Positions 7,176 to 8,609 of a stretch of DNA of 23,679 bases are shown one piece after another. The number at the start of each line of letters is the position of its first letter. Positions within the stretch are counted from its first letter, which is position 1. A program made the translations under genes and the position numbers. Under the pieces are notes generated by a model. It had not been told where the DNA came from and did no database searches. It was given only the letters and a program-made list of their open reading frames with translations. Source of the DNA: an uncultured Lactobacillus sp. (GTDB lineage Bacteria; Bacillota; Bacilli; Lactobacillales; Lactobacillaceae); assembly GCA_945281075.1 (NCBI GenBank), contig CALYQE010000012.1, positions 1-23,679 of the forward strand. Direction: 5' to 3'.

Positions 7176-8609
7176 ATGAGTCAAAAAACCAAATTTCCGA
7201 AAAACTTTCTTTGGGGCGGCGCAGTTGCTGCCGATCAAATTGAAGGAGCATGCTTTGAGGGCGGTAAAGGATTAACCACCTCCGATATGTTTGTCTATCA
7301 GCCAGATGCTGATCGCTCAAGCTTGCATACCTCGACCATGACAAAAAAGCAAGTGCAAGATGCAATTGCTGATCAAGACGGCTATTATCCGAAGCGTCAC
7401 GGGATCGATTTTTATCATACTTACCGCAGTGATTTAAAGTATCTGAAAGAAATGGGTTTTAAGACTTTTCGCTTTTCCATTAACTGGGGCAGAATTTTCC
7501 CCAACGGAGATGATGCTGAACCCAACCAGGCTGGCTTAGACTTTTACGATCACTTGATTGATGAAGTGATTGCTGACGGCATGGAGCCAATTGTAACCAT
7601 GCTTCATTATGAGATTCCGATTAACATCACCTTGAAGTATGGCGGATTCAACAACCGTAAGGTCATTGATCTCTTTACTCGCTACGGCGAAACGCTATTA
7701 GAATATTTTGGCCACAAAGTTCGATACTGGATTGTGATTAACCAGATTAACCTGTTCCACATTGAGCCGTTCAATTCAACTGGTATCTGCGTTGATCAGG
7801 TAGATAATTTCGAAGAGGCAAAATTTCAAGCAATTCATAACCAAATGGTTGCCAGCGCCCGAATAGTTAAAAAGGCACGGGGGTTAAATCCGAACTTACA
7901 GATTGGAACAATGTTAGCTGATCTGACTGCCTATCCAGAAGACAGTAACCCTGATAACGTCTTGTTGGCAATGCACCATAATCAAATGAGCTATTACATG
8001 ACTGACGTACAATTCAGGGGCTCATATCCGGGCTATATTTTACGTTACTTTAAGAAACACAATTACAAGTTGACCATTACTGATGATGATCGTGAAGTTT
8101 TAAGTAAAAATACAATGGACTTTTTGGCTATTTCATATTATTTCTCCCAAATGGTCGACGTAAAAAAGAGCACTGATTATCTCGCTACCGCCCCTAATCC
8201 ATACTTGAAAGATAATCCGTGGGGCTGGGCAATTGATCCTAAGGGGCTTTATAACTGTTTATCACAGTATTGGGATCGCTATCAAAAACCAATTATGATC
8301 GCCGAAAATGGCTTAGGGATGTATGACAAACTCGAAAATGGCACTGTGAATGATGATTATCGCATTGAATATTTAAGAGAACATCTTAAACAATTGAGTC
8401 GCTGCATAGAAGATGGTATTGATGTTTTTGCTTATTGTGCTTGGGGCCCAATCGATCTGGTTAGTTCTTCCTCGCAAGAAATGGAAAAGCGTTACGGTTT
8501 TGTTTATGTTGACTATGACAACTGGGGTAAAGGCAGTGGTCGGCGCTATAAGAAGAAATCATTTTCGTGGTATCAAAAAGTTATTGCGACTAATGGACGT
8601 GAAATTTAG
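7176..8609 (+). CDS. GH1 6-phospho-beta-glucosidase-like protein with Gln at the acid/base position
   Basis: Expected to split 6-phospho-beta-glucosides delivered by the PTS into glucose-6-phosphate and an aglycone in the cytoplasm. At 477 aa it is a complete GH1 barrel beginning [18 protein letters not shown]. The nucleophile motif IAENGLG is intact (Glu377), and the phosphate-binding loop [13 protein letters not shown] (Ser, Lys, Tyr) is typical of 6-phospho enzymes. The motif that normally reads NEIN, whose Glu is the acid/base, reads NQIN here, with Gln190 (codon CAG at 7743-7745). Plant myrosinases have the same exchange and act on thioglucosides. The protein may therefore prefer substrates with good leaving groups, be weakly active on ordinary glucosides, or belong to a distinct subclass. 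The start is ATG 7176 after GAAAGGA (7163-7169), just downstream of RAT site 3; the EIIBCA gene follows after 9 bp. Confidence 0.88.

Follow-up and report, generated by a model that had tools for sequence, protein, structure and literature searches.

A GH1 6-phospho-β-glucosidase homolog with glutamine at the acid/base position belongs to a PTS-linked bacterial clade of apparently single origin

A natural glutamine at the acid/base position of GH1 enzymes is known mainly from plant myrosinases, which act on unphosphorylated thioglucosides and lack the phosphate loop. The plant enzymes 1myr and 7z1i share with the protein described here both the GH1 family and this glutamine, but carry two arginines where our protein has Glu197 and Leu250. 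In GH1 enzymes, the glutamate at the position equivalent to residue 190 of our protein donates a proton to the leaving group before activating water (PMC3605045). The bacterial proteins LpPbg1, SmBgl, E. coli BglA, and 6wgd from Bacillus licheniformis resemble it in fold (TM-scores of 0.87–0.93 on the query), nucleophile, and phosphate loop, but all four have a glutamate as the acid/base residue, which is Glu180 in LpPbg1 (PMC3605045), whereas our protein has a glutamine. With regard to gene content, LBA0724–0726 of Lactobacillus acidophilus, comprising an antiterminator, a IIABC permease, and a GH1 enzyme, are described as induced on amygdalin, esculin, and salicin (PMC5698550), while PTS-PbgS of Companilactobacillus farciminis KB1089 consists of a IIBCA permease and a GH1 6-phospho-β-glucosidase (PMC8660893).

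The DNA analyzed here is a stretch of 23,679 nucleotides from an uncultured Lactobacillus sp. (assembly GCA_945281075.1, contig CALYQE010000012.1), hereafter referred to as the window, and its relevant features are collected in Table 1. It resembles the L. acidophilus genes in its antiterminator, permease, and GH1 enzyme, but it also contains a GH78-MFS unit, which is not described in the accessible part of the report on LBA0724–0726 (PMC5698550). It differs from the C. farciminis locus too, since the third gene selected there encodes a P-loop hypothetical protein and not a LicT, GH78, or MFS protein (PMC8660893). Scanning the window for Rfam families and tRNAs gave no matches.

Table 1. Positions of the features discussed (window coordinates).
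Feature	Position	Strand	Evidence
RAT site and terminator-like hairpin, licT leader	3158..3186	+	pattern match; fold z -4.31
licT, BglG-family antiterminator, probable GTG start	3242..4075	+	NCBIfam NF046042 LicT, 324.1 bits, cut-off 300
RAT site and terminator-like hairpin, GH78-MFS leader	4083..4111	+	pattern match; fold z -5.58
GH78 α-L-rhamnosidase, 526 aa	4154..5734	+	PF21104, PF17389
MFS transporter	5768..6964	+	PF07690
RAT antiterminator site before GH1-PTS	7090..7118	+	pattern match; leader -29.7 kcal/mol, z -7.27
GH1 6-phospho-β-glucosidase (putative), Gln190 instead of the acid/base Glu, 477 aa	7176..8609	+	ORF, Pfam, fold
Gln190 codon CAG, acid/base position, motif VINQIN (WIVINQIN)	7743..7745	+	translation, alignment
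Glu197 (Gln+7), Arg in myrosinase	7764..7766	+	119/144 Gln rows; 1myr alignment
Glu377, catalytic nucleophile, motif IMIAENG	8304..8306	+	144/144 Gln rows, 39/39 Glu rows
Phosphate-binding loop Ser430...Lys438-Arg-Tyr440 with Ser431	8463..8495	+	translation, alignment, PMC3605045 for Lys438
β-Glucoside PTS permease IIABC, partner importer	8619..10535	+	NCBIfam TIGR01995, 656.1 bits, cut-off 614.7

The GH1 gene more likely starts at the ATG at 7176 than at the TTG at 7161, both frames ending at 8609 on the forward strand. Its product matches Pfam Glyco_hydro_1 (PF00232; 394.9 bits, E = 4.8e-118), and the AlphaFold2 model (mean pLDDT 93.4, pTM 0.93) has 6-phospho-β-glucosidases as its closest solved folds in Foldseek, the top match being 6wgd_C (TM-score of 0.91 on the query) and all 50 matches listed being GH1-type enzymes, as judged by their titles. 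We take Ser430 and Tyr440 to be parts of the phosphate site. At position 431 there is a small residue, Ser431, which is Ala431 in the solved 6-phospho-β-glucosidases LpPbg1 and SmBgl, where it is described together with Lys438 (PMC3605045). With respect to EC 3.2.1.86, the protein has the Ser/Lys/Tyr of the phosphate site and a small residue, rather than Trp, at position 431, whereas its top four NCBIfam matches, all of them 6-phospho-β-glucosidase models, scored 447.8–496.9 bits under cut-offs of 623–686, which belong to subfamily models (496.9 bits against 623 for the best one). As for the GH1 family, the sequence, the fold, and the nucleophile Glu377 are all in place, but the acid/base glutamate (NE) expected after strand 4 is missing. 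Judged by its sequence, the protein is a GH1 member by descent that does not have the standard catalytic pair.

The first-pass annotation of this DNA had pointed to Gln190 at the acid/base site and to the preservation of the nucleophile and of the phosphate-site Ser/Lys/Tyr, and we could confirm all of this: the codon at 7743–7745 is CAG, and Glu377, Ser430, Lys438, and Tyr440 are present. It had also regarded decay as unlikely on account of the intact frame, which agrees with a comparison to the Lactobacillus apis relative, in which 427 of the 477 residues are identical (dN 0.076, dS not computable), with about 77% DNA identity over the GH1 gene plus a portion of the PTS gene. Decay or a private mutation was ruled out by the existence of NQ homologs, the preserved active site, the small number of protein changes, and the grouping of the homologs in a single clade. 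Within the window's own genome, which is 76% complete, 12 of the 13 readable GH1 motifs are NE, and only the gene in the window has NQ. A further GH1 gene of this genome (G000:C30:7444-8864, found in L014–L018) is apparently broken by several stop codons.

The glutamine is shared by a large group of bacterial proteins. NQ was present in 121 of 121 proteins, that is, in the window protein and the 120 matches listed of 7986. The fetched loci contained 155 GH1-like ORFs (107 NQ, 40 NE, and 8 other or unreadable, with some genes counted twice), and an alignment of such ORFs of more than 380 amino acids, together with 37 database proteins, comprised 183 rows. Position 190 was Gln in 144 of them (136 distinct) and Glu in 39 (37 distinct), with no third residue. 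Hence, the "near-universal" glutamate of the first-pass annotation holds outside the Gln branch, in 39 of the 39 non-Gln rows sampled, and fails inside it. In a tree of 80 GH1 rows, made after removing five long-branch Glu rows, collapsing rows at least 78% identical, and excluding new matches whose alignment did not exceed 430 residues, all 53 Gln rows formed one clade (bootstrap/SH-aLRT 100/99), so that a single E/Q change is needed; an earlier tree of 65 rows likewise required one. Glu377, Ser430, Lys438, and Tyr440 were each found in all 144 Gln rows, and the codon for the glutamine in 94 Gln ORFs was CAA in 62 and CAG in 32. Since both glutamine codons are in use and the remaining active site has been kept, the Glu-to-Gln change looks old and maintained by selection, as far as can be told from the sequences.

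As the first set of loci (80 kept of 296 confirmed places) was retrieved with two peptide patterns, one of which contains NQ, it is biased towards Gln. The distribution of Gln and Glu was therefore assessed in profile-ranked sets, in which part of the listed matches was examined at position 190 and whose ranking profile was itself built from NQ proteins. In 42 such loci, Gln was present in 13 of 13 at 747 bits or above, while the 29 loci at 665 bits or below had 3 Gln and 26 Glu. A second set of 47 loci had 38 Gln and 9 Glu, all loci examined being Gln down to 673 bits and the highest-ranking Glu appearing at 670.6 bits. Among the profile-ranked loci and the tree rows, none with Glu fell within the Gln branch. 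In two Lactobacillaceae loci (L112:1468-2922 and L114:1462-2925), we observed a basal NQ lineage whose loop differs (NQINDVTEWGEY in L112) and which has neither Glu197 nor Asp249.

The genes of this clade are coupled to the phosphotransferase system. PTS genes were located within 7 kb of the NQ gene in 76 of the 80 loci of the first set; of the other four, L075 and L076 begin at or beside the gene, the contig of L077 measures 4 kb, and L081 is without an assigned focal gene. All 13 Lactobacillaceae regions fetched had PTS genes. A complete Lac-family (cellobiose-type) IIA-IIB-IIC set occurred in 63 of the 80 loci and a PRD regulator within 7 kb in 61, while a β-glucoside IIABC permease was the sole PTS type in five. 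The layout licT-GH1-IIABC is found in the window, in L. apis (L069), and in two Paenibacillus loci (L021 and L022), and it is also present, with an extra NE gene, in Enterococcus hulanensis (L020). In the window, the gene for the IIABC permease adjoins the GH1 gene, beginning 9 bases past its stop codon, which is in line with the proposal of a PTS-fed enzyme. The expectation that NQ homologs would form one clade tied to PTS genes is likewise borne out by the 53 of 53 Gln rows and the 76 of 80 loci given above. In 26 of the 80 loci (L023:7229-7855 and 25 others), a gene for a ~208-amino-acid membrane protein, perhaps a candidate aglycone exporter, shares the strand of the NQ gene at a distance of up to 4.5 kb; the copy in L023 shows weak similarity to YczE (NF052291, 88.2 bits, cut-off 205). 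In 20 of the 80 NQ loci (L020, L023–L029, L048, L067, L070, L073, L078, L079, L084, L087–L089, L093, and L097), the NQ gene is accompanied by a second GH1 gene, either NQ or NE, on the same strand and no more than 2.5 kb away.

The latter arrangement would be compatible with an NQ protein that has no catalytic activity of its own and acts as a sensor or assists a second GH1 enzyme. Nevertheless, no second GH1 gene was found that near in the window or in the loci other than those 20, and the nucleophile and the phosphate site are retained throughout the Gln rows, so we regard this explanation as most improbable.

The activity, substrate, and chemistry of the GH1 protein are what we infer from its sequence, clade, conservation, PTS linkage, and leader signals. 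With a glutamine at position 190, the first step of the reaction would require a leaving group whose anion is stable. We consider it about an even call that the protein is a working GH1 6-phospho-β-glucosidase from an old subfamily without a proton donor, which cleaves activated aglycones acid-free. In such a mechanism, the partner PTS would import and phosphorylate a β-glucoside, Glu377 would attack the anomeric carbon, and the aglycone would depart as a stabilized anion (a phenolate, an enolate, or similar), unaided at position 190. Water would then release glucose-6-phosphate, either slowly or with the aid of Gln190, of a neighboring group, or of a bound anion. Against this reading, the Lac-family PTS sets that predominate in the loci would also suit ordinary disaccharides, the cleavage of which requires an acid.

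We therefore looked for an acid that could have taken over the role of the missing glutamate. A comparison of alignment columns between 81 Gln and 37 Glu rows revealed no compensating acid common to the clade: none of the charged residues present in at least 97% of the Gln rows was absent from more than 11 of the 37 Glu rows. As no charged residue was both clade-wide and clade-specific, a shared substitute acid is not indicated. The only columns separating the two groups at the thresholds used were those of Gln190, Leu87, Ile186, and Tyr273. The last of these is ionizable and nearly clade-wide (76 of 81 Gln rows versus 6 of 37 Glu rows), and a tyrosine at this position was also found in the alignments of three Glu-type PDB chains (3pn8, 2xhy, and 8ysv). 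When placed by numbering offset, Tyr273 would adjoin the position of Arg267, the aglycone-binding residue described for LpPbg1 (PMC3605045).

A substitute could nonetheless differ between lineages. An acidic residue is present in the loop right after NQ in 71 of the 81 Gln rows versus 5 of the 37 Glu rows, and the remaining 10 Gln rows have Asp249, so that individual lineages may, on the alignment, have substitute acids of their own. Accordingly formulated, the explanation would be that the proton comes from Glu197 in the majority of lineages and from Asp249 elsewhere, and that the protein is an ordinary 6-phospho-β-glucosidase with a rewired active site. Glu197 occurs in 119 and Asp249 in 136 of the 144 Gln rows, one or both of them are present in all Gln rows except for L112 and L114, which have a glutamate elsewhere in the loop, and Asp249 is found in 0 of the 39 Glu rows. 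Yet neither residue is clade-wide. Glu197 is also present in 4 of the 37 Glu-type rows, and its coexistence there with NE means that it does not specifically mark the loss of the acid; the notion of Glu197 as a Gln-specific innovation was weakened by the Glu-type L139–L141, which carry it. Asp249, in turn, is replaced by Gly, Tyr, Ser, or other residues in a subgroup, and its counterpart in Thermotoga Bgl1A, N221, faces away from the cleft in a published model of that enzyme (PMC3056771). For these reasons, a relocated acid appears rather unlikely to us, and we prefer acid-free cleavage, although Glu197 and Asp249 may play local roles.

The loss of the base could also have another consequence, namely that hydrolysis is slowed down and the glucosyl-6-phosphate enzyme hands the sugar over to an acceptor other than water. 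Such a transferase activity would be in line with work on Thermotoga Bgl1A, in which substitutions of N220 are described as raising the ratio of transfer to hydrolysis, with simulations suggesting a disturbed acid/base for two of them (PMC5247548). On the other hand, the genes from licT to the PTS encode no evident acceptor or export path. A PTS operon is typically catabolic, which also counts against a transferase, and we hold this possibility to be very unlikely.

With acid-free cleavage as the preferred reading, the question arises as to which aglycones would be released. The first-pass annotation had drawn attention to plant myrosinases as having the same change, and myrosinase 1myr indeed has glutamine at the acid/base position. 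This enzyme also has arginines at Gln+7 and at strand-5 Gly+6, which belong to the sulfate/ascorbate site. In the window protein, these offsets are occupied by Glu197 and Leu250, respectively, so that it has the myrosinase glutamine but neither arginine, which argues against a sulfated aglycone.

A bacterial myrosinase, i.e., a phospho-thioglucosidase acting on glucosinolates imported by the PTS, would nevertheless share the exchange of Glu for Gln with the plant enzymes, and E. coli is described as having gained sinigrin-converting activity from the C. farciminis PTS and GH1 genes together (PMC8660893). The C. farciminis GH1 protein is likened there to E. coli BglA and AscB, with 48–50% identity, a value that fits either a Gln- or a Glu-type enzyme. 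BglA and AscB are themselves connected in the same report with the metabolism of glucosinolates by E. coli O157:H7 (PMC8660893), but their copies in E. coli K-12 have the ordinary NE, and the glutamine thus seems unnecessary for glucosinolate breakdown. In addition to the absence of both arginines, none of the genes from licT to the PTS would obviously deal with sulfate or thiol products. Phospho-thioglucosides or glucosinolates, which the first-pass annotation had put forward as possible substrates, were therefore not supported, and we rate a bacterial myrosinase as distinctly improbable, while the "other activated aryl glucosides" of that annotation are our preferred substrates.

More specific hints come from the genes upstream. 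The ORF of licT is listed from 3122, with the LicT match beginning at residue 42 of this longer frame. As in LicT/RAT-controlled bgl operons, the window has a LicT-family gene and a RAT site that overlaps a terminator: the site in front of the GH1 gene overlaps the 5' arm of a terminator-like hairpin at 7109–7153. All three RAT sites have 0 mismatches to the pattern, with 0.00 expected, but the pattern was a general consensus that had been refined once the site at 7090 was known, so that the matches at 7090 and 4083 exist partly by construction; these two sites are identical over their 29 bases, whereas the one at 3158 differs from them in the free positions of the pattern. Based on these signals, LicT would control the units of the window.

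A leader repeat of 112 nucleotides (4070–4181 and 7077–7188, 83% identical) flanks the GH78-MFS pair. The closest solved chain to the GH78 protein is the α-L-rhamnosidase 4xhc (E = 7.8e-135), the MFS gene is, by position, co-transcribed with the rhamnosidase gene, and a gene for rhamnose isomerase is present elsewhere in the genome. In L. apis, the licT-GH1-PTS locus is colinear with the window and has two RAT sites, but lacks the GH78-MFS pair; the colinear match also points to a Lactobacillus as the source of the window. Given this absence and the copied leader, the pair appears to be a later addition under the same switch, probably a cassette gained together with the copied antiterminator leader.

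The position of the rhamnosidase and the MFS carrier behind the same LicT-type signal would be consistent with rhamnosyl-glucosides, for example flavonol rutinosides, as the upstream source of the substrate. L. melliventris with its rhamnosidase induced or expressed is described as converting rutin to quercetin and as depleting an ion annotated as quercetin-3-O-glucoside; L. apis likewise depleted that ion, but not rutin (PMC8456714). That the ion was depleted by L. melliventris as well as by L. apis counts against the reading. On this circumstantial evidence, a flavonol glucoside fits both the rhamnosidase and the bee-gut kinship. The substrate in the window might perhaps be flavonol glucosides exposed by the rhamnosidase, though many aglycones are conceivable and flavonols are but one guess.

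The clade extends well beyond lactobacilli and is patchy in its occurrence. In the first locus set, 79 of the 80 loci belonged to Bacillota (19 Enterococcaceae, 11 Bacillaceae, 11 Erysipelotrichaceae, 9 Lactobacillaceae, 8 Listeriaceae, and others) and one to Pseudomonadota (Izhakiella), and the members include Enterococcus, Listeria, C. difficile, and a bee Lactobacillus. Matches of at least 745 bits were found in 12 of 301 Lactobacillaceae genomes, and matches above 672 bits, part of which were examined at position 190, in 46 of 295 genomes in the sample of the order; in the sample of the class, 7 of 398 genomes passed E 1e-200 (the window's genome being included in each count). An NQ GH1 gene (L156:5992-7431) is carried by an Enterobacter ludwigii plasmid typed as conjugative, with PTS EIIC and porin genes nearby. 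The L. monocytogenes gene in L155 is, judging from gene order, probably lmo0917. Transcript levels of lmo0917 are described as higher in soil extract (PMC3179493). In Bombilactobacillus apium (L111, L152, and L094), the NQ copy is broken by internal stop codons, and this is the only broken NQ copy among the 12 best Lactobacillaceae matches.

Titles and abstract openings in the open-licence PMC literature searched contained no report of a 6-phospho GH1 clade with Gln as the acid/base residue; a PTS-linked bacterial Gln clade of single origin was unreported within that scope and may still have been published. Proteins of the clade are named "glycoside hydrolase family 1 protein" or "6-phospho-beta-glucosidase" in databases, and these names conceal the Gln difference. 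Tentatively, and with somewhat less than even confidence, we propose that one ancient Glu-to-Gln change founded a PTS-fed phospho-glucosidase subfamily without any general acid/base and with another substrate class than myrosinase, which spread through Bacillota and was carried into Enterobacterales. As members of the clade are found in bacteria associated with the gut, with food, and with insects, the compound they act on may be a glucoside that is common in the diet or in plants. If the absence of a general acid/base is true, the subfamily would be a second, independent natural case beside plant myrosinase, and it would reveal which of the plant compounds taken up can be cleaved without an acid.
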